Part shown: positions 3,001-37,684 of the stretch, in pieces
Layout of the letters: each line of letters starts with the position of its first letter
How positions within the stretch are numbered: position 1 is the stretch's first letter
Translations under genes and position numbers: made by a program
The notes under the pieces: generated by a model
The model's input: only the letters and a program-made list of their open reading frames with translations
What the model was told of the DNA's origin: nothing
Database searches by the model: none
DNA from: Paludibacteraceae bacterium
GTDB taxonomy: Bacteria > Bacteroidota > Bacteroidia > Bacteroidales > Paludibacteraceae
DNA: 64,000 nucleotides
Direction of reading: 5' to 3'
NCBI GenBank assembly: GCA_017962085.1
Contig: JAGCWA010000016.1
Span: forward strand, 1 to 64,000

Positions 3001-6000
3001 GTAACCTTGCTGTCGTACCAGTGCAACTCGTATATGGCGTCCGTCGTGCTTACCAAATCCTTTATGTCCACCGGCGAGTTCAAACATACCATCGTGTCGA
3101 AGGCGATCGGCATTGGAGAAGAGCTAACCGTGATATGCACTTTCACGGCAGGACCCTTACAGCCAAATTCGTTCACCTGGCGCACGAAGAAGTAATAAGT
3201 TGAATCGTAGTCCAAGGAGACGGAAGGCTCATCCGAGCTCCAGCCAGCGGCAGGCTCCTGAGTTACCGACTCCGTCACCTCCACCCACTCCAAGGTGTGA
3301 TCAGGTTCCGCGACAGCGGCATTTTTCACAGAAGCGCTGCTACCCACCTCCATCACAAAGCTCAAGGCAGGACTTGTAGCGGCAGGTTCGCCCGGAATAG
3401 GTTTCAGGATAAATTGATAAGCATTATCGGAATTATCACAATAGCCTGTAGCCGAGCCCAAGAGTTCCACATACTTCATTGCGGTAGGCTCCTCGTTCGG
3501 CGACAACATCGTCTCATCATAGGTGAATTCATCGCCCATATAATCATCACCATTATACGTCCATACGAACGACGCATCACTAGGAGATTTGCTAATGATT
3601 TTAAAGGTAGTGAGGCCACACTCCTCCACCTTGTCATAGTCGAATTCCACCGTAGGTTTCACATCGATTTCGTACTTACGTTTACCCTGGCAACCATCAG
3701 ATGTTTGAGCGACGAAATAGTAGACCTCCTTCTCATCGCTCTTATGGGAAATCTCATAAGAGAGGGCATCATTGTCATCAGAAAGAGGGACTATCATAGT
3801 ACCAGTTTCGTTGGACCACCCCCAAGCCACCACCTCAGACGGAAGTGAAGGAGCGACCAGCGTCACCGACGCATTCACACAAGCGGATGACTTCACCGTC
3901 GCGCCAAGGTCCAAATCGCCCGCGCGGGTGATGGTGAAAGGCTCCGTGATGGAGTAGTTACGGCAAGCGTCAGTGATATCCGCCTTGTTCGGATTAGTCA
4001 CAAAGTCACCCAACACATCCGGGGTAGCCACCACCACACGGAACTGCATTTTATCGTCACTTCTATAATCCAATGTATTGATCGTAAACTCGTTGCGATC
4101 CTCCAAGCCGGATATATTGCGCCATGTATTGCCCATATCACCGCTATACTGGAACAAGAACTTATGGTTACCGCCAAAGAAATTCTCCAACATCTCACTC
4201 ACAGGAGCATCAATCACAAACTCCATATCCGAACAGATGGTGGAATCCTTCGCCAAGGTGGCGATATCAGAGTATGCCTCCAAGGAAGGAGGAGAGCAGA
4301 CCATGAACTTGATATCATCAATAATAAGGTCATTACCTTGTTTCCAATACGAATGGTCGGTCTCTGAACCACTCGTACTCAAAACCTGCATTTTGATAGA
4401 CCTCTTACCAGAACCCTGCAAATGAAATCTCCGTTGTCCATCAGATGTCAAAGGAGTCCAGCCTCCACCCCGTTTTGCCTCTATATCAGCTATTTCATCC
4501 AACAATTCACCAGTAACAGCATCCAAAATCCGAACTGTAACTTTAGGAGAATGTTCAGTTCCTCCTGTAGCATTAGCGAACCATGTTTCATAAAATATGT
4601 CCTTCCCCTCACATATATCGGGGAATACCGCTTCAAATACAACCCCCACATATCCTTCATCCACATTAATGGCAAGCGCACCACCTCTCGACTCTCCTGT
4701 AACTTCCGAAGTATGGTCTGCATCCACACCATCCATCCATCCCACATATCCTTGACCTGTACCATGACCTGGCAGACAAGGAAATCCATTAGGTGTCGGA
4801 GTCACGATGGCATAGTAACCATCATCGACATTTCCAACACTTGGGTTATTACAAGAACACTTAGGAGAGCACTCAGTCACACCATCATCAAATCCATGAC
4901 TTGGAATGTCGTATGACACATCTTGTCTATAATCAGGCCAAGAACTAGGTGTCTGGCTGACATTGCCATCCTTGTCCACATAGGTATGAGCGGCAGTGAA
5001 ACGACCGAAAGTCTCCCACAAAAGCGTCTGTCGCGAAGTCGGTTGATTATTTTCATTAACACAACAGACAATGCTCTCCACCTTCATCACATTAGAGGAG
5101 TCACCGCCGACCAAACAGCGGAAAACCTCATCTCCATTCTTCAACTCGTAAATCACGCTTTTCGTAGAACCGATTTCCTTCCAAGAATTTCCGTCCTTCC
5201 TCTGCCAAGAGTAAGTCTTCGCATTATACTCCTTATCAAGGGTGAGCACCGTCTGTTCTCCCTCACACACCTTCAATCCTTGGCTCGAACGGATAAACGG
5301 ATCGAGCGTACCTTCCACCTTGATACTGGTAATACCAAGTGCATAACCCGCTTTTTTCCCGTAATAAGGGAACTTGAGAACCAACGACATGTCTCTACTT
5401 GTCGCCTTACCAGAAACCGTCACCGTAATTTTCTTCTGAGTCGATCTTAAACTAACGGTACCATCCGTCTGGACAGCATCATTAGTTCCTCCTCCGCTCA
5501 CCTTGTAAGAAAACACATTCGTTGAATTTTGGGCTGGAGCCGGATTAAGAGACATCACAAAACCCAATGGTTCATCAGAACTAGTATTCGTAGGGTTCAA
5601 AAAATAACATTCGAGCGTAACGGTGAAATTCTCGCCCTCCTTCAAACCACCAAAATCGTAGGTAAAGAAAGAGGTCATTGGGGCCATCGTTCCAGCATAC
5701 TGAATGACACAAATGGACTCATCCGTCTCCATGTAGTCTGGATTCAATATGCTCGGATTGTTTGTCACACAATAGACAAAATCCAATTTATTAGTGGCTC
5801 CTGTTCTATAGTTCTTTCCATCACCCGAATAGGTGGCAGATGAGGAAAGCGCATTACCAGAAATACCCCCTTGCTTCACCGAGATTAAATCCCAAGGGAT
5901 AGAATCTCCCGGATTCACTTTAGGCTCAAAATCCGTACTCGCTATCACCGCGGCGGAGGCTGAACCCAACAACGAAACGCAAGCCCACAGCACCAGCGTT

Positions 6001-6059
6001 GCAATAGGTTTGCAATATTGACATAACTTTATAGTTTTCATAACGTTACTGTTTTTCAT
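1..6059 (-). CDS. Giant secreted Ig-like/PKD-type repeat protein (partial, 3' end beyond window)
   Basis: An open frame of about 2,020 codons runs from an ATG at 6059 (a second in-frame ATG is at 6041) past position 1. I checked the frame at both ends and at several internal points and found no stop there. The N-terminus has a signal peptide: a basic start, the hydrophobic stretch ATLVLWACVSLLG, then SASA. The first ~900 residues contain Cys-rich, lectin-like segments. From there on, Ig-like modules of about 80-100 residues follow one another, recognisable by recurring YYFVRQ, FYVTQQ, YYYVTQ and YYVQ strands and by W-containing strands such as LKWYGNGE. In Bacteroidota such proteins are usually exported by the type IX system and end in a gliding-motility-type C-terminal domain; that end is outside this window, so secretion route is inferred. 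The part at 1-3290 is much richer in G+C than 3290-6059. Ligand and role are unknown. Confidence 0.85.
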   Translation of the reverse strand, partial: MKNSNVMKTIKLCQYCKPIATLVLWACVSLLGSASAAVIASTDFEPKVNPGDSIPWDLISVKQGGISGNALSSSATYSGDGKNYRTGATNKLDFVYCVTNNPSILNPDYMETDESICVIQYAGTMAPMTSFFTYDFGGLKEGENFTVTLECYFLNPTNTSSDEPLGFVMSLNPAPAQNSTNVFSYKVSGGGTNDAVQTDGTVSLRSTQKKITVTVSGKATSRDMSLVLKFPYYGKKAGYALGITSIKVEGTLDPFIRSSQGLKVCEGEQTVLTLDKEYNAKTYSWQRKDGNSWKEIGSTKSVIYELKNGDEVFRCLVGGDSSNVMKVESIVCCVNENNQPTSRQTLLWETFGRFTAAHTYVDKDGNVSQTPSSWPDYRQDVSYDIPSHGFDDGVTECSPKCSCNNPSVGNVDDGYYAIVTPTPNGFPCLPGHGTGQGYVGWMDGVDADHTSEVTGESRGGALAINVDEGYVGVVFEAVFPDICEGKDIFYETWFANATGGTEHSPKVTVRILDAVTGELLDEIADIEAKRGGGWTPLTSDGQRRFHLQGSGKRSIKMQVLSTSGSETDHSYWKQGNDLIIDDIKFMVCSPPSLEAYSDIATLAKDSTICSDMEFVIDAPVSEMLENFFGGNHKFLFQYSGDMGNTWRNISGLEDRNEFTINTLDYRSDDKMQFRVVVATPDVLGDFVTNPNKADITDACRNYSITEPFTITRAGDLDLGATVKSSACVNASVTLVAPSLPSEVVAWGWSNETGTMIVPLSDDNDALSYEISHKSDEKEVYYFVAQTSDGCQGKRKYEIDVKPTVEFDYDKVEECGLTTFKIISKSPSDASFVWTYNGDDYMGDEFTYDETMLSPNEEPTAMKYVELLGSATGYCDNSDNAYQFILKPIPGEPAATSPALSFVMEVGSSASVKNAAVAEPDHTLEWVEVTESVTQEPAAGWSSDEPSVSLDYDSTYYFFVRQVNEFGCKGPAVKVHITVSSSPMPIAFDTMVCLNSPVDIKDLVSTTDAIYELHWYDSKVTPDGSGSLVEPSVPTDKPGVYEFYVTQQSTVSPFPESKLQTVTVEVVGVYEPDTTGNTYHYCSDDAPVELVAKVKKDESKSYYADEVVWSVNGGSESATKPTVDTHVNTTTTYEYKAYQTYTIKNSKKDVCKGDALTWDVEVTFVPALSTSQVTYMKADAENGTFAKNLMEQSENDAVTDYASTMKLWWYEDDCTTKVGDGKTAPTPKVDPSVAAGVDQELSYCVRQEVSGCLSEGTEVPVLISDAPKPNPTDYVYCKGDAAEKLTTKPDMTIKPNATYVLKWYGNGERGDYTDLHLSGDEGPTPTTNMRAGDIGKSEYYYYVTQTEIVNGQEGAESNRTEIKVTVYDQTEIAIDKGVLGAVCKPATVDIAKSVSFTNEVANLSYDTRYYADNTLADELTSTKVGVSGDYYVQTSFEVKSKSNKATCVSDPTPIPVTVDTLQVLVEDVGTCPNMEAKFTVQANTNTTGVKYIWNAVDGNDPNGGTSTNAEFTTRKFTGADYGDVFEYTLKVEAGTCTYDDKLKVTLGEGPVMGTMTITEDGNSYEPNTFTDTKFNEFYSCGAPLKIKADYHEADGTAITDYKWYDGTKQIGTGAELELPETANSGDRTYRVDFTNGCPTNVTITIHYRPIKATPLSTKITKLCEGKEFSAEVKTEFAEGESPVYTWYRNGAEVEMGGGTSLDVSRTKLTIDKVKTTDSGRYTFLMTNRGCEARAELDSLVAMPYIVATEKIDTIVARYSNPNIALDVTVPAGGADVKYDWKGTRGESESTNPLSLNNVTSDHYYEVTLSAEDHCDATAIVDVKVDAKLVLKTTLKDTICTGLSAVLTIDTTGTGKFRHEDWNRSLTVTVTSEGVTSDLTGSVTRDGDLLKLTVSPTTTATYKINFNYGPQDTTATELLYVIPAIGVTIPEAVTICQGEATDIVITDIQPEGTVIKWNADTTILTESLDTAAVTVKPVYLGGTNHQYQYAYDFVAYNTFCNSSVPYTAYVKVDEPLEGEIL

Positions 6060-6108
6060 ACTTAAAAATTATTCCCTATTATCTCATATATACTTAGCCA
6101 TACCCATA

Positions 6109-6116
6109 CAAAGATA
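6109..6116 (-). promoter_or_regulatory. Bacteroidota -7 promoter box for the giant gene
   Basis: The minus strand reads TATCTTTG, an exact match to the TAnnTTTG -7 consensus, about 50 bases before the ATG at 6059. A second match (TAATTTTG) lies just upstream. No clear -33 TTG was seen. Confidence 0.5.
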
Positions 6117-6164
6117 CAAAATTAATCCGAAAAAAGAAACATTTACACTACAATCAAACAGAGA

Positions 6165-6181
6165 CCCGGGAATCAGCCGGG
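6165..6181 (-). terminator. Weak hairpin after the DUF486 gene
   Basis: CCCGG and CCGGG form a 5-bp stem a few bases after the stop of the minus-strand gene ending at 6189. Only a poor T-rich tract follows, so termination is uncertain. Confidence 0.3.
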
Positions 6182-6188
6182 AACGTGT

Positions 6189-6563
6189 TCATTTGCGGAA
6201 GACGAAATAGACCGCCAACACCAGACAAACGAATGCCGCCGCATGGTTCCAATGGAACGATTCCCCCTTGAAGGCAAACGTCACAATAGCAGTGAAAACA
6301 CAGATGGAAATCACCTCCTGCAACACCTTCAACTGCATCAAGGAGAAAGGTCCGCCCATGATCTGGGAACCGATACGGTTGGCGGGAATCATGAAGAAAT
6401 ACTCCAACAAGGCAATGCCCCAACTGAAGAGGATGATAAGGATCAGCGGCCAATCCGTCGAGATCTTCATCTCCTGCAACTTCAGATTACCATACCACGC
6501 GAAGGTCATAAAAACGTTCGACACCACCAGCAAAAGGATGGTCAATAAACCTTTAGTACCCAT
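6189..6563 (-). CDS. DMT-superfamily membrane protein, DUF486 family
   Basis: This 124-residue protein has four hydrophobic segments (about residues 4-22, 39-57, 79-100 and 106-122) and conserved features of the DUF486 family, including FMTFAWYGNLK near the N-terminus and IPANRIG in the middle. The length is normal for the family, which consists of small four-helix inner-membrane proteins related to drug/metabolite transporters. The substrate is not known. The start at 6563 is the first ATG and places a strong -7 box 24 bases upstream. It appears to be a single-gene transcript, lying between the giant repeat-protein gene downstream and the lipoprotein operon upstream on the same strand. Family assignment is confident; transport function is inference. 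Confidence 0.85.
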   Translation of the reverse strand: MGTKGLLTILLLVVSNVFMTFAWYGNLKLQEMKISTDWPLILIILFSWGIALLEYFFMIPANRIGSQIMGGPFSLMQLKVLQEVISICVFTAIVTFAFKGESFHWNHAAAFVCLVLAVYFVFRK

Positions 6564-6586
6564 TTCCTTCCATTCTAAATCCGCGA

Positions 6587-6620
6587 CAAATGTACATAAA
6601 AATTACAGGTAAGTTCCAAA
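6587..6620 (-). promoter_or_regulatory. Promoter of the DUF486 gene
   Basis: On the minus strand TACATTTG (6594-6587) matches the -7 consensus. A TTTG at 6620-6617 lies 22 bases upstream as a possible -33 element. The -33 element falls inside one arm of the inverted repeat at 6605-6687. Confidence 0.55.
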
Positions 6621-6687
6621 GATTCACCTTTTTTTATTAAACAGGCAATGCTATTTACCTGAAAATCAATCTTTAGAACCCACCTGT
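6605..6687. repeat. 83-bp imperfect inverted repeat between two genes
   Basis: The 20-base arms at 6605-6624 and 6668-6687 are inverted copies matching at 17 of 20 positions. The centre is AT-rich. It could form a long hairpin in RNA leaving the lipoprotein gene (ending at 6713), or it could be a small mobile-element remnant. Confidence 0.5.
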
Positions 6688-6712
6688 AACAAACTTTATC
6701 CGCAGCACGTCG

Positions 6713-9493
6713 CTACTTGCTAGCGACAACCGGAACGAATCCCTTTGAGCACCCGCACTTGTCCTCCTCCATGTTCGTCTTCGTGAAACGGACACCCATG
6801 ATTGGGCCGAACATGACAAGTTGGGCGATGTCCGCCTCATTCTTCCACATGTAGTTGATGTTGCTTTCGCCCTTCTTTTTGAGCGCGGAGTTCCTGAAGT
6901 CGACTTTCCAGCAGCAGAAGAGAGGTTCGCTTCCTATTCCGTCACGCACCAGTATCGTCGCATCCGTTGTTTTATCCGTGTTCCTGTGGATGACAGCTTC
7001 GGAGTTTTCCGCCATGAAAATTGAGGTGATGCGCTGTTCGTCATCCATAAATGTCGTCTTTTCCTTGAATCCGTTATCCTTCAACACCTTCTCAAACTCC
7101 TTGGTTAATTCCGGGTTGAGGTTCAGCGTATAGAACGCAGTTGATTCGGATCTGCCCACCAGAATATTCTTGGCTTTTTTGTAGGTCGATTGGAAGACAC
7201 TGCTTATCTCGTCGTCCACGTTTTTGTTCTCGACGTCAGCGGAGCCATACAAGTAAATATCCTCATCGTCCCCAGCATTCCCGTACATCTCATAGTCCGT
7301 TTTGAACTTGTAGACATTCGACTCCTCGGTTGGCACGAGTTCACTCTTTTGTGCCACGTTCAATTGGTCGGTAAGCAGATAGACGGTGAGTCTGTGGTTT
7401 TTCCCGTAGGAGGAACTATACTCGTTTTCCAGTATTAGCATTCCGTCGTAGTCGGGGCTTTTGTACCATACCTGATACCTGCTTGTCTCGTTTTGCGGTT
7501 TCTTTTGGAACATCTCCGTGTATTTGTCCTTTTTCGTGTTGAACTTCACGGTCCGGTCTCCGATGATCGCATAGATGCAGTTCGGGTCTGGCTTTTCGCC
7601 GGCACATACCTCAATGGTCCCGAGGCTTATGCGGTCTGAATTCAGGTCGATCCTTTTGGTGATCCTCTTCCCGTTGCAGTTAATCTTAACTTTTGCCTTG
7701 GCATCCTTCAAGCTTATCGGAAGGTCGACGTCAAAGTATCCGAACCTTGAGGACCGCGAGAACACCCTCTTGTTCTTCCCATGGCCAGCCTCCACGGTGA
7801 TTTTAGCCTTAGACGGACCACATGTGTTGACGATGGTGCCAACCACGGAGATGCCTGTCGGAATGATAATGTTAGGCATATATTGCCATCTCTTTTTCTC
7901 TAACTCTTTGGTCACTCTGTTTGATTCCAGTCCGAAACCATCATTGGCCTGGACATAAAGGGTAACCTCCTTTGTGGTGGAGGAGACAGGGAAGTAGTAG
8001 TACCTCCGGGCTCTTATCGAATACTTCTTTTGGTCGACAAGGGCAGTAACCGTAATCGAATCGCCTAAGCGTCTGAAATCGGAGGTATATATGGATCCAT
8101 GGATGAATATAGGTCGATCGATAACGAAGTCATAGCTTTTCTCGTTGTCCACTTCCCATGGGTTTTTGAACACGTACTTCTGGATCTCCTGTTTCTTATT
8201 GATCATGGTGTAGCCTTCGTCGACAAACATTGAGAAAGGCTCATCGACATTGTAGTAGAATATATATTCACCCTTTCTGTCGGTTATGGTGGTTATTTTG
8301 TCTGTCCGTACGACAACGCCGGCAAACGGTTGGCCCTCCTTGTCCGTTACCGTTCCGTGCAGGCAAGGCATGTTAGGCAGAATGACATCTTGCGAGTAGA
8401 CGTCACCAGCCTCCAATCCGTTCACGTTGTAAATAGGGCAATTGGTGTAGTTGGCGTAGTCTTCCGGCTTCACCGTCACGAAGACAGGTGTGTTTTGCGG
8501 CACGTATGCCCAATAATACCCCGCGCTATCGGAGTATGCGCTTGTTTGGGAGATCGTCACCAACACATGGGGCAATGGCTTCCCGTCCTTATTCAACACA
8601 CGGCCCCTGATGGTCGCTCTAGTAGATGGGTAATCAAGATTATACCAGGAGAAATGTTTGACATTTCCCACGTAGGAACCTCCATTTTTCGTGGCCACGC
8701 CTTCTTCCATCCAAGTGCCTTTCGCCTCGTCGAAATACCAAAGAGGGATTTGGTCGTATTTCTGGTCCTCTGAGAATCCGTCAGGAAGCGGGAAGGTCAT
8801 CGAGCTCTCCGCACCCTCCTTCAATTGTAGCTTTTGGCCTACGGAATCCTTGAGCGTCACCTCAACCATGCCATATGATAAAAGGATGACATCCTTTCCT
8901 TCGGCCGTCACTCCGCTCATGTCGCCTCCAGGCATCTCTTTGGTGAAAGTTTCCGATTTGGGATTCAGGTAGTATACACTGGCGAATACGGAACCACTGA
9001 AATCCTTTCTATCCTTCTCATAGACCATGGAGTTGGCTGGAATCGTGATTTTCATGTTACCCACTTCGATCGTCGCGCCTTGGCTATTGTAGAAACGGGT
9101 GACTTCCGACACGCCCTCTCTGCTGTCCTGTGCCATCATTACCGCGTCGACACGGGCTTCCCCATCGATGATGTTCGCCGTGCGGACCACTGAAAAGTAG
9201 TCATCGTTCTCGAACTTCACGACACTCCTTCCATTCACGGCGTGGCACTTCTCCAACGAGTAAGCTCCGCTTCTGTTCGTGAGAGTTGAGTCCTCGCCAC
9301 TAGTGACCAGCACATGCTCCAACGCGTTTCCGTCCGCGTCCCTGACGAAACCATAGACGTACGTGTCGGAAACCGAGTCCACACAGATATAATCCTCACA
9401 GTTCTTCAGGTCCTGCTTGGGTTTGTCGCAACCACTCAGCAATGCCAGGAGAGTGGCGATTGCTCCGAATGCCAGTTTTTTCATGTTTCCCAT
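6713..9493 (-). CDS. Lipoprotein with repeated carboxypeptidase-regulatory-like (transthyretin-like) domains
   Basis: The 926-residue product begins with a lipoprotein signal peptide whose lipobox LLSGC places the lipidated Cys at residue 22 (19 if the ATG at 9484 is used). Several CarboxypepD_reg-like beta-sandwich modules follow. Each begins with a phrase like GFVRDADGNALEHVLV (~50), IRGRVLNKDGKPLPHVLV (~295) or LHGTVTDKEGQPFAGVVV (~380) and then a D/S-x-G-x-Y turn; more divergent copies lie near 460 and 550. The C-terminal ~300 residues resemble no domain I know. Such proteins sit on the outer membrane of Bacteroidota. It is the last gene of a three-gene operon, 35 bases after the gene ending at 9529. 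Function is unknown. Confidence 0.8.
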   Translation of the reverse strand: MGNMKKLAFGAIATLLALLSGCDKPKQDLKNCEDYICVDSVSDTYVYGFVRDADGNALEHVLVTSGEDSTLTNRSGAYSLEKCHAVNGRSVVKFENDDYFSVVRTANIIDGEARVDAVMMAQDSREGVSEVTRFYNSQGATIEVGNMKITIPANSMVYEKDRKDFSGSVFASVYYLNPKSETFTKEMPGGDMSGVTAEGKDVILLSYGMVEVTLKDSVGQKLQLKEGAESSMTFPLPDGFSEDQKYDQIPLWYFDEAKGTWMEEGVATKNGGSYVGNVKHFSWYNLDYPSTRATIRGRVLNKDGKPLPHVLVTISQTSAYSDSAGYYWAYVPQNTPVFVTVKPEDYANYTNCPIYNVNGLEAGDVYSQDVILPNMPCLHGTVTDKEGQPFAGVVVRTDKITTITDRKGEYIFYYNVDEPFSMFVDEGYTMINKKQEIQKYVFKNPWEVDNEKSYDFVIDRPIFIHGSIYTSDFRRLGDSITVTALVDQKKYSIRARRYYYFPVSSTTKEVTLYVQANDGFGLESNRVTKELEKKRWQYMPNIIIPTGISVVGTIVNTCGPSKAKITVEAGHGKNKRVFSRSSRFGYFDVDLPISLKDAKAKVKINCNGKRITKRIDLNSDRISLGTIEVCAGEKPDPNCIYAIIGDRTVKFNTKKDKYTEMFQKKPQNETSRYQVWYKSPDYDGMLILENEYSSSYGKNHRLTVYLLTDQLNVAQKSELVPTEESNVYKFKTDYEMYGNAGDDEDIYLYGSADVENKNVDDEISSVFQSTYKKAKNILVGRSESTAFYTLNLNPELTKEFEKVLKDNGFKEKTTFMDDEQRITSIFMAENSEAVIHRNTDKTTDATILVRDGIGSEPLFCCWKVDFRNSALKKKGESNINYMWKNEADIAQLVMFGPIMGVRFTKTNMEEDKCGCSKGFVPVVASK

Positions 9494-31847: not shown

Positions 31848-31879
31848 CACCGCAATTGAGAACGATAGTTCGACAATTC

Positions 31880-31963
31880 GCCCAGGTGGCGGAATCGGTA
31901 GACGCGCTGGTCTCAAACACCAGTGGATTCACTTCCATCCCGGTTCGACCCCGGGCCTGGGTA
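31880..31963 (+). tRNA. tRNA-Leu (anticodon CAA)
   Basis: The 84-base gene has a long variable arm typical of class II tRNAs. Acceptor GCCCAGG pairs with CCTGGGT (one G-U pair), the loop CTCAAAC gives anticodon CAA, and the T-arm contains GGTTCGACC. The last 12 bases around the 3' end are repeated at 37246-37257 and serve as the integration site of the element that follows. Confidence 0.95.
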
Positions 31964-31964
31964 C
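31953..31964 (+). repeat. Attachment site copy inside tRNA-Leu 3' end
   Basis: GGGCCTGGGTAC is the tRNA 3' end plus one flanking base and is identical to 37246-37257. Confidence 0.85.
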
Positions 31965-32022
31965 ATACACCAAAAGATAATCCCTTGTAAAACAAACATT
32001 TACAGGGGATTTAATTTTTTAA

Positions 32023-32062
32023 AGGTGTACTAAAAGTGTACTATATAACATTGAGGTGTACT
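32023..32062 (+). repeat. Three AGGTGTACT-type repeats inside the left end of the element
   Basis: Copies are at 32023-32031, 32034-32042 (AAGTGTACT) and 32054-32062. Related copies sit at the right end. The arrangement resembles the arm-type binding sites of a tyrosine integrase or sites for an excisionase. The remaining bases from 31965 to 32203 hold no other gene. Confidence 0.65.
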
Positions 32063-32203
32063 TTTGTGTTGTTTTAGCCACACAAGAAAGGGGTGTAAGT
32101 GCATCACTACACAACACCCCCACCAAAAAAATATAGTTGGCTTTAACAAAGCCGTTGCAAAAGTATAAAATATAATTATTTTTCTGTCTGGTTGAGGCTC
32201 TTT

Positions 32204-32689
32204 TTACTCTGGCTGTAGCCCATATAATTGAAGTGCATCACTATAAGCCTTTTTATCAAACATACCTCCATCCCATCCAAACATTTCTTGTGTGCATTCC
32301 TCCTTAAGCACACTCCTTGCATCCGTTTGCCCCGTGTCCAAATCCTTAATCTTTTCAATTAACCACATTGCCGTTTTCAGCCTATTAGTTTCACTTTCTG
32401 AGTGCAAACCATCGTTTATCACTTGCAAGGCATCGTTTGCAAGTCCAAACAAGCCATTTCTTAAATTATCTCTATAGTCTTTAGCCTGTTTGTTTAGAAA
32501 GCATTGGAATGTAACAAGCCTTTGCCATTCATATATCGTGCATCGGTTTACATTCAATTTCACAGCAACCGCTGAAATAGTTTCACCTGTTGCAAGCATC
32601 ATTGCAACTTGTTCCTGCAATGGGGTTAAGCCCGTCTGAGGATTCACATTGTTTTTTTCTGTTGGTTTTCGTCTGTTTTTGTCTGCCAT
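32204..32689 (-). CDS. HTH protein of the element (terminase-small-subunit-like)
   Basis: The 161-residue protein contains a helix-turn-helix at about residues 20-60 (LTPLQEQVAMMLATGETISA, then VAVKLNVNRCTIYEWQ), followed by a helical region with repeated Leu and Asn. This layout resembles phage HTH or terminase-small-subunit-like proteins. There is no large terminase gene in the element, so a packaging role is doubtful; a regulatory role, or hijacking a helper's packaging, are both possible. It is the last gene of the minus-strand set, 69 bases after the replication gene, next to the tRNA end. Confidence 0.65.
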   Translation of the reverse strand: MADKNRRKPTEKNNVNPQTGLTPLQEQVAMMLATGETISAVAVKLNVNRCTIYEWQRLVTFQCFLNKQAKDYRDNLRNGLFGLANDALQVINDGLHSESETNRLKTAMWLIEKIKDLDTGQTDARSVLKEECTQEMFGWDGGMFDKKAYSDALQLYGLQPE

Positions 32690-32758
32690 ATCTTCAATAT
32701 TTTAAATTGTTGAATGTTACCAAATTCTGGTAACAACATACACTTTATTATAAGACAA

Positions 32759-33703
32759 TCACACATAAGCCCCACAATTTCTCACCTCATTATCCAACTC
32801 CCTCATAAGTTCATCGGAAACGGTAATATTGGCTTTTGTGGCTACTTCTTGGATTTTGTTTTTAAGTCTGGTGTAATTCTTTCTATCCTCAAACACACCT
32901 GCCCCTTTCAACTCATCCAGAAAGCCTCCAATCTGGGTTTGGTCTGTCTGGGTTATCAATCGTGCAACAAACACGTTGAAAGCGTCTGTAACGGTCTTAA
33001 TCTCACTCATAATATTAGTTTTTATCTGGTTCAACTTGGTTATTGAAAAATAACTATCTTGATAACGTCTAACCATCATTTTGTAAAAGGGTGCATCATA
33101 CAGGGTTGAGGCTGTAACCTCTGGCACTTTCAATTGATTAGATAGTCTGCCATTTAGCCTCATCTCATATCTCAACAGGTTTGCCCCTTCCAAATCCTCT
33201 GGGTAGTCCATTCCTTTGGCTCTGGCATCTGCCATCTTATCATAGAAAGCAAACACTTTAGGTTGTTGCCTTCCTGTCCCTTTATAATACAGGGTTGAGG
33301 GTTCAAAGTGGTATCGGTTCAATCTGGGCATATTACCCAATTTTGCAAGGTACTCTGAAACTTGGTGCATCATAAAAAAGTTTATGCCAAATTCAAGCCC
33401 TGTAACATTTGCTTTGTCTGCCTGTAGGTGTAAAGCGTCACTCAACTTTGCTATTGCTTGGGCTGTTGTGTGCCTATCCAGAGGATAAACATTGCTACCA
33501 TACAGGTATTTTGGCAAACTCCCCACCACCGACAAACCACCAACAAAGATAGACACTTTCAACCCCTCCAAATTGCCAAAGGTTTTAACCTCTCCCGTCT
33601 TGTGGTTTATCTGTGTGTTAGCCTCATCCAGATAGTTGGCTATAGTGGGGTATTGTTCCCCCACCATAGCCCTATCAATCCAGAGTTTTACTTTGTCGTA
33701 CAT
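32759..33703 (-). CDS. Phage/plasmid replication protein, II/X-like
   Basis: The 314-residue protein resembles the replication initiators of filamentous phages and related plasmids (gene II/X type). It begins with MYDKVKLWIDRA. Then come LKVSIFVGGLSVVGSLPKYL near residue 48, VTGLEFGINFFM near 100 and LLRYEMRLNGRLSNQL near 180, matching the order of conserved segments in that family. The C-terminal third is more variable. Such proteins nick one strand at the origin to start rolling-circle replication. I cannot assign the catalytic Tyr residues from inspection. Its presence means that the element can probably replicate after excision. Confidence 0.7.
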   Translation of the reverse strand: MYDKVKLWIDRAMVGEQYPTIANYLDEANTQINHKTGEVKTFGNLEGLKVSIFVGGLSVVGSLPKYLYGSNVYPLDRHTTAQAIAKLSDALHLQADKANVTGLEFGINFFMMHQVSEYLAKLGNMPRLNRYHFEPSTLYYKGTGRQQPKVFAFYDKMADARAKGMDYPEDLEGANLLRYEMRLNGRLSNQLKVPEVTASTLYDAPFYKMMVRRYQDSYFSITKLNQIKTNIMSEIKTVTDAFNVFVARLITQTDQTQIGGFLDELKGAGVFEDRKNYTRLKNKIQEVATKANITVSDELMRELDNEVRNCGAYV

Positions 33704-33736
33704 CTGTGTTATTTGTTACCAATTTTTGCCCACAAA

Positions 33737-34279
33737 CTACATATTATTATAAAACACTTCCCTCTGGGCTTGCTTTCTCAAAGCCTGTAAAGCCTCATCA
33801 AAACCACCCATTTTTAGTTGCTTACAATAGGAACTAATAAGCACCTTTGCACCCTCCAACACCAGCAATTCAATACAGGTGGGAATTAGGTTTGTGGGGT
33901 CTTTCTCATCTTGGTACAACTTAAACAAATACCCATCTCCCTTATATTCATAGAAAGGGTTGGGCTTTTTATCCTTGCTGTAGTTGGGTTTATCCAGAGG
34001 GTAGCCATAGGCAAAACCACTCAACTTGCCATCCTCAAAATACTCTTTTAAGCCTGTAAAGTTGAGGCTGTTTTTTGCCTGTAGCCTCATAGAGGGCACA
34101 TTATCCCCCTCCTTTAGTTTCTCCATCAAGTTCATAGACACAAGTCCATCCCTGCCCCTTAATTGTTCCATAGGAGGGTAAAATCCTGCTTGGGCTTTAA
34201 TCGTGTATTTGGGTGTCTTATTGCCTTTAGGGGTGGTGTTCACCATCTTGGCATAAAATCGTATGTTTGGAGTGTTCAT
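33737..34279 (-). CDS. Conserved-looking protein of unknown function in the element
   Basis: The 180-residue protein starts at an ATG that overlaps the stop of the HTH gene by four bases; an in-frame ATG at 34306 is less likely. It is rich in Lys, Pro, Gly and aromatics in the first two thirds (KGNKTPKYTIKAQAGFYPPM, GYPLDKPNYSKDKK), which looks beta-rich, and ends in a helical, Lys-rich tail. The position just before the replication gene is where filamentous phages encode a single-strand DNA-binding protein, but no such motif was recognised. No function can be assigned. Confidence 0.65.
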   Translation of the reverse strand: MNTPNIRFYAKMVNTTPKGNKTPKYTIKAQAGFYPPMEQLRGRDGLVSMNLMEKLKEGDNVPSMRLQAKNSLNFTGLKEYFEDGKLSGFAYGYPLDKPNYSKDKKPNPFYEYKGDGYLFKLYQDEKDPTNLIPTCIELLVLEGAKVLISSYCKQLKMGGFDEALQALRKQAQREVFYNNM

Positions 34280-34563
34280 TTTGCACCTCCTTTCATACAA
34301 TAACATTGAGCCTTTTGGCTTAACTCATCGGCTGTTGCAACTCTGTTGTTTTGTAACCACGTTTCCAACTCTTGCCTGTTGAAATAGCACATCTTGCCCA
34401 TTGGCTTGTAATGAGGTATCTTTTGCCCCATTGTCAACTTGTACAAGTATGATTTGGATATGCCCAAATATCTTGCCGTTTCGTCACTTGTAAGCACTTC
34501 TTTTGTGCAAAAAATAGTGTTTGCTGTTATTAGGTCAGCCACCTGTTTTAAATCCTCTGTCAT
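34276..34563 (-). CDS. Excisionase-like helix-turn-helix protein
   Basis: The 95-residue protein has a MerR/excisionase-type HTH with wing: LTSDETARYLGISKSYLYKL (residues ~24-43) followed by KIPHYKPMGKMCYFNRQELE. This pattern is common in small recombination-directionality factors and in regulators next to Bacteroidota integrases. It probably biases the integrase toward excision or controls the replication operon. It is the first gene of the set with the 180-residue protein and the replication gene. A 230-base non-coding gap with two inverted repeats lies upstream. Confidence 0.75.
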   Translation of the reverse strand: MTEDLKQVADLITANTIFCTKEVLTSDETARYLGISKSYLYKLTMGQKIPHYKPMGKMCYFNRQELETWLQNNRVATADELSQKAQCYCMKGGAK

Positions 34564-34600
34564 TTTTTAAGATTTATGTTTGGGCTGTCAGAGGGTGTTA

Positions 34601-34649
34601 GCAAGCCCAACCCCCTTGTTTGCCCTGCTCCCTGTCTGGTAGGGCTTGC
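34601..34649. repeat. Inverted repeat with large loop in the element's non-coding gap
   Basis: GCAAGCCC (34601-34608) and GGGCTTGC (34642-34649) are perfect inverted copies separated by 33 bases rich in pyrimidines. It lies upstream of the HTH gene and could be a leader structure or part of a replication origin. Confidence 0.5.
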
Positions 34650-34720
34650 TATTCTTATCCTACCTTTGAGAAAGCAATGACAAAGGAATAAAGGAAAATC
34701 CACAATAAAGAAAAAAGAAA

Positions 34721-34763
34721 ATGTACTTTAATTGTCCGTTGTTAAGTGACAATTAAAGTACAT
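34721..34763. repeat. 16-bp perfect hairpin; terminator or origin
   Basis: Arms at 34721-34736 and 34748-34763 are perfect 16-base inverted copies with an 11-base loop. On the minus strand it is followed by a T-rich tract, so it can terminate the gene ending at 34794. It contains TGTACTTTA, resembling the end repeats of the element, and lies in the main internal gap where an origin could be. Confidence 0.6.
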
Positions 34764-34793
34764 TAAAAGCAACCTCCATTGGTTTGTTGGGGG

Positions 34794-35804
34794 CTAATCA
34801 AGGCTTTTTATTGCCCCCTCTAATTCCTCATTGATAAACATACTTTCATTTAAGTATCTGTTATAACCTGTCTTACTGCCAATATCCCCAAACTCATTTT
34901 TTACTTCGGTGTAAGTCGGTCTTGCCAACCACCCTTTCTTTAGGCAAGCCAATATTATCAAGGTGGCATCTTTCCCCTTTTTACCATCAATCTTTGTGTG
35001 TATCTTTTTCAACTTGTTCCCATCGGCATCATCAATCATTCTATCCTTAAAAGTTTTCTTTGGTCTGCCCCTGCCTCTGGTTTTCTTGGTCTGTTCCTGT
35101 TGAGGCTCTGGGGTGAGGTTCTGGGCATCTGTTGTTTGCTCTTGTTGAGGCTCTTTTGGTAGTGCATCAATGTATCTTTGTCTGAGGTTGTCACTGCCCA
35201 AAGCCTTGTTTACAAGGTTATTATTGGGATTTTCCATTAGATATATACCCATTAATTCTTGCAATTTCATCATATCTATACCACATGACAGCAAAAAGGC
35301 ATATAAACGATTAGCAAACACAATCATAGCATTGTAATAAAAACTCAAACATTCCTCCACAGAATTTTCCTCCACCCAAGCACCTTTACCAATCATTCTT
35401 CTAAATTGGTCTCTAACATACAAAGTCCATTCATTTTGTTCTGTTGGCGTGAAAACGCCTGCAATATTACATCCTTGTTCACCAAATGGGGCTAACAAAG
35501 AGAATAAATATTCTCTTCTTTCAACTTCATACAAACAGCTATTAAAGTTTGCTTTAATCTCATTCATCAAAGGACTATCATTTAGTTCAAGCACCTTAAA
35601 ATTAAAAGCATTTGTATATTTCAATATTTCTTCTGGGTACACCTGTTTTATGTAAAATTCCCAACTTTCATCTCGTTTAGTATCTTTTGTTTCTGGCAAG
35701 TCGTGTACGGCTCTTAAATATTCAATACATTTGCTTACAACACCATTAATTTTAAACGCATCAAAAAACTTTTTTTCTATTGTCTTATCCATAGCCTCAA
35801 CCAT
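34794..35804 (-). CDS. AT-hook-containing element protein of unknown function
   Basis: The 336-residue protein has a helical N-terminal region (~1-215) without a recognisable motif. A linker with two PQQEQT repeats follows (~220-240), then an AT-hook-like sequence TRGRGRPKKTFKDR (~240-253) that would bind the minor groove of AT-rich DNA, and a C-terminal domain of ~80 residues starting at KIDGKKGKDATLIILACLKK. Its ATG overlaps the integrase stop by one base (TAATG), so the two are made together. It may help the integrase or segregate or regulate the element; this is inference. It ends next to the hairpin at 34721-34763. Confidence 0.65.
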   Translation of the reverse strand: MVEAMDKTIEKKFFDAFKINGVVSKCIEYLRAVHDLPETKDTKRDESWEFYIKQVYPEEILKYTNAFNFKVLELNDSPLMNEIKANFNSCLYEVERREYLFSLLAPFGEQGCNIAGVFTPTEQNEWTLYVRDQFRRMIGKGAWVEENSVEECLSFYYNAMIVFANRLYAFLLSCGIDMMKLQELMGIYLMENPNNNLVNKALGSDNLRQRYIDALPKEPQQEQTTDAQNLTPEPQQEQTKKTRGRGRPKKTFKDRMIDDADGNKLKKIHTKIDGKKGKDATLIILACLKKGWLARPTYTEVKNEFGDIGSKTGYNRYLNESMFINEELEGAIKSLD

Positions 35805-37048
35805 TAAAAGTTAGTAATTTCCAGAGTTGGCAGACTGTTTATTGCATCCTCTTTCAGCCTGTCTATTGCTCTGGTGTATTTCTCCGTGTGCTTTAATCCA
35901 GAGTGCCCCAACAGGCTTGCCACCGTCTTAATGTTCGCCCCGTTGTTGAGAATATTAACAGCAAAAGAATGTCTGGCACAATGCCAGCTTATATGCTTGT
36001 CAATCCCCGCCCTCTTAACCCACCTTTTAAGGGCTTTTAAGCACATTTCATAACTGGGCAAAGGAAATATAAGGCTCTCTTTGCTCTGGTTCTCTGTTGG
36101 CTCTCCTATAAGCCTCAACAATCCATCATTAAGGGGAATAATAACACCGCTATTAGCGGAATGCCCCTTGGTCTTATTCTGTTCAAACTTTAGCAACTTA
36201 TTGGAGTAATCCACATTGGAAAAAGTAAGGTCTTTCACATCACAAAATCTTAACCCACAATACAGGCACATTATAAAAGCCCTCCTTATGTTGGGGTTTT
36301 CTCCCTCATAATGGGTGTTAATCAATGCTTGTTCCTCATCCAAAGAAAGCACGTCTTTTCTCAATATCTGGTCATCTGCCTTTATTACAACCCCCGTGCA
36401 TGGGTTCTTTGTCAACACATCGTGTTCAATGGCATAATTAACAACTTTCTTGAAACGCTGATAAATGCTTTTTGCCCCCTCTCCAACACTTCTACTTTGT
36501 AGGTACTCAGAAAAAGACACCATCATATCTTTGTTAAGTTGCTCTGGCTTTATGCTCTTTGCAAACTTGGTGTACTCTGGTGTGGCGTTCAAAAAATCCC
36601 TAAACCTCTGTAGGGCAATTTGCACCATCCTAATATCTTTCTTGGTGTAATTGTCAATGTAGTTTTGGAAGTAATCCAGAAAGTTTATTTGGCGGTCTTT
36701 CTTTAGCCTGTAGCCCTCACTACTCTCTAATAGTTCCTGCTCCCTTTCTTGTCTAATTTTCTTTGCAAGTTGCAAGGTTTCCTTATTGTGGGTTCTGTCA
36801 ATAGGAGTTCTGGGGGTAGCCACCAAATAGAGGTTGAGGTTTTCTTTTCTCCTTATGTGCCTAACCTTATACTTGGGTGTTCCTGCCATCCTACCACTCT
36901 CATACAATACAGGCTCTCCAAACTCATCTAACACGGGCTCACTTTCCCTGCCCAAATAATACTCCAAATAAAGGCTAATTTGCCCATCTGCTAACAACCT
37001 CTGTTCAAGTCTGGGGTTGTCTTTGCTCTTGTTTTCTAACTTTGCCAT
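35804..37048 (-). CDS. int: Tyrosine recombinase (integrase)
   Basis: The 414-residue protein carries the full set of catalytic residues: Arg267 (GLRFCD), His356 and Arg359 (WHCARHSFA), His382 (LLGHSG) and the nucleophile Tyr391 (TEKYTR). The N-terminal ~110 residues form an arm-binding region, followed by a SAM-like core-binding domain (~120-210). This is the layout of integrases of Bacteroidota mobile elements. It lies at the right end of the element, next to the AGGTGTACT repeats and 198 bases from the second attachment site, and presumably recombines the 12-base repeats. The start at 37048 fits the domain layout. Confidence 0.95.
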   Translation of the reverse strand: MAKLENKSKDNPRLEQRLLADGQISLYLEYYLGRESEPVLDEFGEPVLYESGRMAGTPKYKVRHIRRKENLNLYLVATPRTPIDRTHNKETLQLAKKIRQEREQELLESSEGYRLKKDRQINFLDYFQNYIDNYTKKDIRMVQIALQRFRDFLNATPEYTKFAKSIKPEQLNKDMMVSFSEYLQSRSVGEGAKSIYQRFKKVVNYAIEHDVLTKNPCTGVVIKADDQILRKDVLSLDEEQALINTHYEGENPNIRRAFIMCLYCGLRFCDVKDLTFSNVDYSNKLLKFEQNKTKGHSANSGVIIPLNDGLLRLIGEPTENQSKESLIFPLPSYEMCLKALKRWVKRAGIDKHISWHCARHSFAVNILNNGANIKTVASLLGHSGLKHTEKYTRAIDRLKEDAINSLPTLEITNF

Positions 37049-37151
37049 AGTGTACTATATTCTTTTGGTTTCTTTTGGTAGTGTAAAGATACAACATATT
37101 TTCACAGAGGTGTACTAAAAGGTGTACTAATTAACATAAAATAGTACACCT
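37048..37151. repeat. Three direct and one inverted GTGTACT repeats at the right end
   Basis: Copies are at 37048-37056 (TAGTGTACT), 37108-37116, 37120-37128 (both AGGTGTACT) and, inverted, 37143-37151 (AGTACACCT). They lie between the integrase start codon and the right attachment site. They may serve both as integrase arm sites and in control of int expression. Confidence 0.65.
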
Positions 37152-37245
37152 TTATCCCACAAAAAGAAAATGATAAATAATAAAGTCATTGTAAATCAAC
37201 ATCTTTGTATTCTTTTATTTTCTCTTGTATTCAAGGTTATGTATT

Positions 37246-37257
37246 GGGCCTGGGTAC
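37246..37257 (+). repeat. Second attachment site copy (right end)
   Basis: GGGCCTGGGTAC is identical to the tRNA-Leu 3' end at 31953-31964. Confidence 0.85.
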
Positions 37258-37264
37258 TAAGAAA

Positions 37265-37300
37265 GGCTGTTAATCGAAAGATTGACGGCCTTTTTCTTTT
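37265..37300 (+). terminator. Displaced terminator of tRNA-Leu
   Basis: GGCTGTTAATC and GATTGACGGCC form an 11-bp stem (two G-U pairs) with a GAAA loop, followed by a T-rich run. It lies seven bases after the right attachment site, exactly where the tRNA-Leu terminator would be before insertion of the element. Confidence 0.75.
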
Positions 37301-37684
37301 TACGGACAATTCATCGGATAGCCAAGGAGTAGCCCCCTACCAATCAGTCATATAGAGCCCGCACATTCGCACGTCCACAGAAAAATATCGCACACGCAGA
37401 AAAAAAGATGGGCGAATCCATTCGGACTCGCCCAATTTCGCAAAGCTTACACAATACATGCAGGTATTTCCTCAAAATCTCGGTTCAGAATAAACCATTA
37501 TTACACTTTATCAATAATCGTTCTGTCATTGACGTTACAAATATAATGCAAAACCAATGATTTTACGGAATTAATATACTAAAATTTTCAAAAAATTTTG
37601 AATTTTTATTTTTTGAGAGTTCCGAAACGGTTTTTGTAATCAATATAACTATATGATTTCCAAATAGATAACATCAAAATCGGA
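37301..37684. other. AT-rich intergenic region without a gene
   Basis: Apart from the hairpin at 37410-37433, no gene, repeat or convincing promoter was seen here. It separates the displaced tRNA terminator from the end of the second HTCS. Confidence 0.6.
37402..37433 (-). terminator. Terminator of the second HTCS
   Basis: GGGCGAATCC and GGACTCGCCC pair with one mismatch around an ATTC loop. On the minus strand the hairpin is followed by a T run. It lies 250 bases after the HTCS stop codon. Confidence 0.65.

Follow-up and report, generated by a model that had tools for sequence, protein, structure and literature searches.

A 5.3-kb element integrated in a tRNA-Leu gene of a Paludibacteraceae bacterium is probably a minimal phage satellite

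We analysed a 64-kb window, the whole stretch of 64,000 nucleotides at positions 1 to 64,000 of contig JAGCWA010000016.1 (assembly GCA_017962085.1, Paludibacteraceae bacterium), in which a first-pass annotation had placed a small integrative element in a tRNA-Leu gene. ARAGORN identified the target as a tRNA-Leu(CAA), and the last 12 bases of this tRNA, GGGCCTGGGTAC, do recur downstream, as that annotation had reported (Table 1). Two copies are found in the window with up to one mismatch, against 0.14 expected and with none of 100 shuffles reaching two; whether the 12-mer is common elsewhere was also checked, and the whole 3.37-Mb, 59-contig genome holds exactly these two at zero mismatches. 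Between the repeats lies a discrete integrated element of 39% GC, compared with 48.7% for the window, whose six long open reading frames (ORFs) are all on the minus strand. The integrase gene is distal, starting about 200 bp inside the distal repeat copy, and a 161-aa ORF occupies the tRNA end. The locus thus combines an integrase gene with direct repeats, one of which is the 3' end of a tRNA, as in tyrosine-recombinase-type insertions.

Table 1. Features of the element in the window, and defence-type genes at related loci (coordinates of the respective locus)
Feature	Position	Strand	Evidence
tRNA-Leu(CAA), with tRNA-side attachment (att) copy at 31953-31964	31880..31964	+	ARAGORN; repeat search
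Integrated element, 5,293 bp with one 12-bp repeat copy counted	31965..37257	.	Direct repeats; G011 identity; empty sites; GC
Element-borne hairpin, then TAATTTTT; likely replacement tRNA terminator	31979..32011	+	-14.9 kcal/mol
Three GTGTACT motifs at the tRNA-side end (32025, 32036, 32056), putative arm sites of the integrase	32024..32062	+	Motif search
161-aa helix-turn-helix protein, candidate small terminase	32204..32689	-	PHROG and PDB profile matches
Near-palindrome GTTACC..GGTAAC between the Rep and candidate small terminase genes	32716..32734	.	By eye
Rep, 314 aa, Phage_CRI (G2P-type) replication initiator	32759..33703	-	PF05144 3.3e-8
Conserved 180-aa protein (ORF189; 189 aa if started upstream), usually directly before Rep	33737..34279	-	Homologues at 32/40 Rep loci
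95-aa HTH_17 protein, excisionase/AlpA-like	34276..34563	-	PF12728 6.5e-14; TIGR01764 excise 2.4e-11
336-aa ORF; one-base overlap with the integrase stop (TAATG)	34794..35804	-	ORF list
Tyrosine integrase, 414 aa	35804..37048	-	PF00589 1.2e-22; PF13102 3.8e-17; PF17293 (arm-binding) 3.8e-7
GTGTACT cluster (37050, 37110, 37122; 37143 on the other strand), putative arm sites, distal end	37050..37150	.	Motif search
Distal att copy, GGGCCTGGGTAC	37246..37257	+	Repeat search
Displaced native tRNA terminator hairpin, then TCTTTTTA	37261..37294	+	Fold; homologous hairpin directly after the tRNA in G015, G010, G007, G004
AbiH	L118 7817-8920		
Fic	L051 5629-6390; L105 4575-5813		
AbiD	L107 8507-9436		

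The insertion was then compared with 15 relatives of the same genus, all 16 genomes of which carry the tRNA. A query joining the two flanks (31850-31964 plus 37258-37457, the junction lying after query position 115) aligned contiguously across the junction, hairpin included, in four of the 15, namely G015 (query positions 1-192, 91%), G010 (1-158, 94%), G007 (1-160, 89%) and G004 (1-158, 86%), which represent the empty site. In these four the tRNA is directly followed by a homologue of the hairpin found beyond the distal repeat, the arrangement foreseen for relatives lacking the element; the expectation that an empty locus would have a 3' flank like 37258-37300 therefore held in 4 of 15 relatives. 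In G005, G008 and G009 an unrelated hairpin follows the tRNA (in G009, the second of two tandem tRNA copies). Similarity past the junction was limited to 26 bases in G002 and 4-7 bases in G001, G006, G012 and G013, the alignment of G003 ended at the junction, and the G014 contig ends there; these seven relatives have neither the element nor a flank that is clearly window-like. A 45-kb insertion considered in G001 was rejected, as the downstream side of the tRNA points to the contig start. The borders, described in the first-pass annotation as known almost to the base, are thus right to within the 12-bp repeat.

In G011, the tRNA-Leu site is occupied by the same element. The two copies are 99.62% identical over 5,281 aligned bases, with 20 mismatches, 10 of them in one patch at about 36038-36090, and the same six ORFs are open in G011. 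By contrast, the flanks are only 89.79% (979 bases) and 89.19% (1,129 bases) identical, and the shift in identity is located at the 12-bp repeats. An element at 99.62% between flanks at 89-90% indicates that the element moves and, judged from these identities, it has been transferred between species of the genus. The proposal of a small integrative element in tRNA-Leu is thus borne out both by relatives with an empty site and by a near-identical copy in a diverged relative. The fourth base of the att sequence is C in both window copies (31956, 37249) and T in both G011 copies, despite the 99.6% identity of the elements; the core letter thus follows the acceptor pair of the host tRNA in both.

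The hairpin with a T run beyond the distal repeat had been interpreted as the original terminator of the tRNA, displaced by the insertion. The fold of 37258-37305 (-21.8 kcal/mol, z -5.9, 0/200 shuffles as good) and the homologous hairpin directly after the tRNA in the four empty-site relatives agree with this origin, and the hairpin now stands 5.3 kb from the tRNA. The terminator was displaced but apparently not lost, since the element supplies a hairpin with a T run that begins 14 bp after the tRNA (31975-32023, z -4.9, 0/200 shuffles as good). We therefore abandoned the view that the insertion deprives the tRNA of a terminator; the element hairpin likely substitutes for the displaced one. 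Related insertions, described below, present the same feature: among nine of the 15 loci with a repeat in a tRNA or transfer-messenger RNA (tmRNA) gene, a scan in which the best hairpin was picked, without shuffle control, found a hairpin no more than 95 bases into the element in all nine, followed by at least five T in the next eight bases in eight (L091 has three). By eye, the element-side hairpins of L083 and L093 are similar to the native type seen in empty relatives, and the hairpins after the tRNA in G003 and G001 look like that of the element. This likeness suggests that a host-style terminator may have been acquired by the element.

Pfam recognised catalytic, SAM-like and arm-binding domains in the integrase. 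On the two strands together the element has eight GTGTACT copies, of which seven are no more than about 210 bp from an end and one is inside the integrase gene, a clustering as expected for arm sites; many relatives carry an 18-25-bp repeat at equivalent positions. The HTH_17 family profile gave a weak match to the recombination directionality factor RdfS (8dgl, 0.008). An integrase accompanied by an excisionase/AlpA-like regulator is also found in satellites resembling phage-inducible chromosomal islands (PICIs), as is a replication module of the element's own, a role to which the Phage_CRI match would assign Rep. PF05144 was matched by 30 of 33 aligned members of the Rep family (best 1e-35) and Rep_trans by 4/33. 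ORF189 had no Pfam match at E up to 0.01 in 29/29 members. Neither the ORF189 nor the Rep profile matched a solved structure, and no phage was matched by Rep (of the window or of the related locus L033) or by ORF189 of L033.

The Rep could also be read as a relaxase-like initiator, the element being an integrative and mobilizable element (IME) transferred by a conjugative helper. Like NBU1, Tn4555 and Tn5520, known IMEs of the same phylum, it is small and has a single tyrosine integrase. Moreover, MobT relaxases are related to Rep_trans initiators according to passages of PMC5704250 and PMC11389934, and four of the 33 Reps match Rep_trans. However, NBU1, Tn4555 and Tn5520 encode a canonical relaxase (PMC5704250, in part), whereas the six element proteins matched no relaxase and no conjugation or type IV secretion system family in Pfam at E up to 1; in NCBIfam the sole conjugation-named match was that of an HTH to the regulator TrbA (E 0.11; 12.6 bits, cut-off 96). 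The best Rep match remains Phage_CRI, and mobilization would leave unexplained the terminase genes of relatives presented below. Since no relaxase was found, neither an integrative and conjugative element (ICE) nor an IME is our first choice, and we consider the IME unlikely. The size that the first-pass annotation had set against the usual ICEs of Bacteroidota is indeed small, but the comparison with ICEs was misplaced, for want of a credible relaxase or conjugation family. Nor did the six proteins match any primase, capsid or tail family.

The protein encoded next to the tRNA offers a possible clue to the transfer route. The best PHROG match of this 161-aa helix-turn-helix (HTH) protein is a small terminase (TerS; 9.3e-5), TerS PHROGs were matched by 4/4 members of its family (2.3e-11 for the best of any member), and the family profile matched PDB 2ao9 (7.6e-6) and, more weakly, Sf6-type gp1 TerS (0.002-0.003, residues 19/20-126). 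hhalign gave 93.7% for the family versus the TerS group of L033, and 5.1% versus the family's other HTH protein. These profile matches suggest that the window protein is probably a remote TerS. A class-wide profile search with this protein, with matches in 25/395 genomes, was set aside as HTH chance matches; the 24 outside G000 were weak (6e-6 or worse), mostly in the HTH region and mostly to proteins of about 210-265 aa. Relatives of the protein in G345, G291 and G076 lie in elements with an integrase and HTH_17, and follow a 420-465-aa protein without Pfam match (with one more ORF between in G076), while in G408 a homologue split into two frames follows a family Rep and a short ORF, with no integrase found upstream.

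The G076 element (L119, G076:C21, 665-14039) is about 6.1 kb long and lies between 7678 and 13817 inside an array resembling clustered regularly interspaced short palindromic repeats (CRISPR), with 107 repeats of 30 bp at a pitch of about 66 bp on one side of the element and four on the other. TGGAATTGAAACAT is present at both junctions, its first 12 bases being the 3' end of the array repeat, and a CRISPR repeat thus seems to have served as attachment site.

Packaging genes were clearer at other loci of the Rep family. L033 carries a TerS gene (phrog_309, 4e-27) as its last gene, three ORFs after Rep; this TerS matched 88 phage records, and in 5/5 annotated records inspected, one of them Streptococcus satellite phage Javan259, the homologue lies directly before terL. 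Right after the Rep of L057, between chromosomal-looking flanks, come a TerS (Terminase_2, 8.8e-33), a large terminase (TerL; phrog_38, 4.2e-97) and a head morphogenesis protein (phrog_7625, 7.1e-65); no portal or major capsid gene was noticed by eye, the last 2.7 kb not having been subjected to a family search. On these matches, some members of the Rep family do carry packaging genes. We no longer treat the three TerS types as unrelated to one another, since phrog_2538 is matched by the L033 TerS as well as by the 161-aa family. Just before TerS, L033 also encodes a 735-aa coiled, by eye tape-measure-like protein (5952-8159) with no convincing Pfam match.

These genes also bear on another possibility, namely that the element is a rolling-circle plasmid that integrates, or something plasmid-like, and has no dedicated means of transfer; its 161-aa HTH protein would then regulate copy number or transcription. 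The HTH matches of this protein do include resolvase, DNA invertase and transcriptional regulator families, and many loci of the family have no recognised packaging gene. On the other hand, the TerS matches of all four family members and the real TerS genes downstream of Rep in L033 and L057 speak against a plasmid, and Rep had one remote match only (25.8% identity) among PLSDB plasmids. We judge this explanation improbable, slightly more so than an IME.

We next looked at the distribution of Rep, in searches that covered relatives, genomes of the order and viral contigs, and went wider only in a scan of named genomes. Homologues were found in 5/101 relatives, in 20/393 genomes of the order (some very weak, G000 included), at 18 loci in named genomes and in a few viral contigs. 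Forty loci were compared, each contig counted once (L079, L034 and L161 are the same G011 element, that of the window, represented by L079; L031, L052 and L055 share one contig, as do L032 and L053; L054 is apparently almost a duplicate of L033, from a different sample). An ORF189 homologue is present at 32 loci and an HTH_17 gene at 27 (28 matches, two in L056), and the usual order is integrase, variable ORF, HTH_17, ORF189, Rep and one or more variable downstream genes. Integrase and Rep occur together at 30 loci, and in 15 of these a tRNA or tmRNA gene overlaps a direct repeat, which delimits elements of 4.5-7.8 kb; no such repeat was found at the other 15 by the method used. L084, L089, L094, L099, L100, L101, L104, L105, L049 and L054, with no integrase upstream in the available stretch, were left out of this count. 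Seven of the 15 repeats lie in tRNA-Leu(CAA), four of them (L079, L083, L088, L093) beside a gene like the window's neighbour, which we take to be of manC type. In L033, which spans 8.1 kb, the repeat is 28 bp long and lies at the end of a FAD/NAD oxidoreductase gene, presumably nqrF. This recurrence of a similar compact set in many insertions at different sites, together with six ORFs that are all open, also in the G011 copy, makes it very improbable that the element is a decayed remnant of a larger prophage, as its small size, phage-like integrase and TerS-like gene might otherwise suggest.

Taken together, the evidence shows that the mobile element is real. It is most likely a phage satellite, of a type that we did not find described for Bacteroidales in the literature covered. 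We favour a minimal, helper-dependent phage satellite, and consider it likely that, after excision, the element is replicated by means of Rep and packaged by a helper phage with the aid of its own TerS, because of its mobility, its Phage_CRI Rep, its TerS-like protein and the clear packaging genes of L033 and L057. Recombination between a circular form and the tRNA-Leu 3' end, catalysed by the tyrosine integrase, would restore the tRNA, and the hairpin at the element's edge would take over from the displaced terminator. A helper phage would probably be the inducer; the HTH_17 protein would then activate or direct excision, Rep would start rolling-circle replication, probably yielding concatemers, and TerS would direct the helper's large terminase so that element DNA is packaged into helper particles. 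Whether this extends to a family is an even call: Bacteroidales would then harbour undescribed minimal phage satellites of about 4.5-8 kb that pair a rolling-circle Rep of the G2P type with interchangeable packaging genes drawn from at least three TerS types, target many tRNA ends (and a CRISPR repeat in a relative sharing the 161-aa TerS type), and insulate the tRNA with a substitute terminator.

Several observations weigh against packaging by a helper phage. The hhalign match to the L033 TerS group covers 35 HTH columns only, a resolvase HTH scored 0.002 in the same search as the weak Sf6 match, with the same value, and Pfam returned only HTH families, below cut-offs, for the 161-aa protein. 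No match was obtained by tblastn of this protein in phages, nor any close relative in viral contigs. A TerS-like gene is present at only five of the 40 Rep loci (L079, which is the element itself, L099, L033, L054 and L057); 15 others carry downstream of Rep a GGR..GTPNK protein without packaging annotation, and at the remaining half of the 40 no packaging-type gene was recognised in that position. IMG/VR does not contain the exact circular junction, and Terminase_2, Terminase_6N and phrog_38 were not found in G000, a metagenome-assembled genome that is 97% complete. A lytic helper, however, would not be resident, and the phrog_38 search itself matched in only 2/12 genomes tried. As for the GGR..GTPNK protein, we rejected it as a TerS: tblastn of one member in phages led to two Bacteroides phages, near an integrase and a repressor and not terL, and the phage search with a second member gave no match. 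In L048 (5204-5862), L102 (6210-6909) and L100 (6279-6868), Rep is followed by this DUF5681-like protein in two tandem, divergent copies.

PICIs carry an integrase, an excisionase, a replication gene and a terS-type packaging gene, a set that the element resembles with its integrase, excisionase-like, replication and TerS-like genes. It is half the usual PICI size or less, has a rolling-circle-type Rep and belongs to another phylum, and its six proteins include no divergent regulator pair and no capsid-redirection family that we could see. Filamentous phages share the Phage_CRI/G2P family of Rep, but require a Zot-like assembly ATPase and coat proteins; neither family is among the six proteins, and we rejected a filamentous phage for lack of any assembly gene. 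Another parallel is the phage-inducible chromosomal minimalist island (PICMI) of Vibrionaceae, described in the part of PMC10803314 consulted as a satellite of about 6 kb packaged as 8 copies in about 49 kb, the concatemers being consistent with rolling-circle replication. PICMIs carry an integrase, often a gene overlapping int, an AlpA regulator and a replication gene, with no capsid-remodelling gene; they are defined by Int, AlpA, a DUF3987/DUF5906 primase and a location beside fis and, according to the same passages, no homologue of terS was identified in them. The element is similar in size, int-overlapping gene and replication gene, and the PICMI model, as given there, uses among others PF12728, the Pfam family of the window's HTH_17 protein. 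It differs by its Phage_CRI Rep, its tRNA-Leu target, its TerS-like gene and its host order, and no primase family was found in its six proteins. PICMIs thus set a precedent for satellites of about 5-6 kb and show, in these passages, that packaging in concatemeric form is possible at a size of about 6 kb.

A review of helper-dependent elements (PMC11389934, in part) names P4-like elements, PICI, cfPICI, PLE, PICMI, VEIME, Tycheposon and soil satellites, and mentions phage-like packaging systems for PICIs; in the portion at hand, 'bacteroid' occurs twice, in connection with the IME NBU1 and its reference. No Bacteroidota satellite family was described among the literature matches listed, which comprised titles and the start of abstracts and left subscription papers and bioRxiv preprints largely outside (cf. 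PMC11389934, PMC10803314, PMC5704250, PMC12324425, each in part). If the satellite interpretation is true, gut and rumen Bacteroidales would harbour a sequence-defined, easily found satellite family whose minimal set of packaging genes could be tested, and the element would exemplify the mending of a transcription unit by the insertion that interrupts it.

Other features were noted at the locus and in its relatives. The near-palindrome between the Rep and TerS-like genes is a possible operator or origin. The 336-aa ORF gave no PADLOC match at E up to 0.01. Four of ten cargo or neighbour proteins tested matched abortive-infection or Fic models (Table 1), in keeping with the satellite reading; only the L051 Fic gene is clearly between integrase and Rep, while AbiH, the L105 Fic and AbiD may be outside the elements. 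Finally, genome G038 contains three divergent loci of the Rep family (L048, L050, L051) on different contigs.

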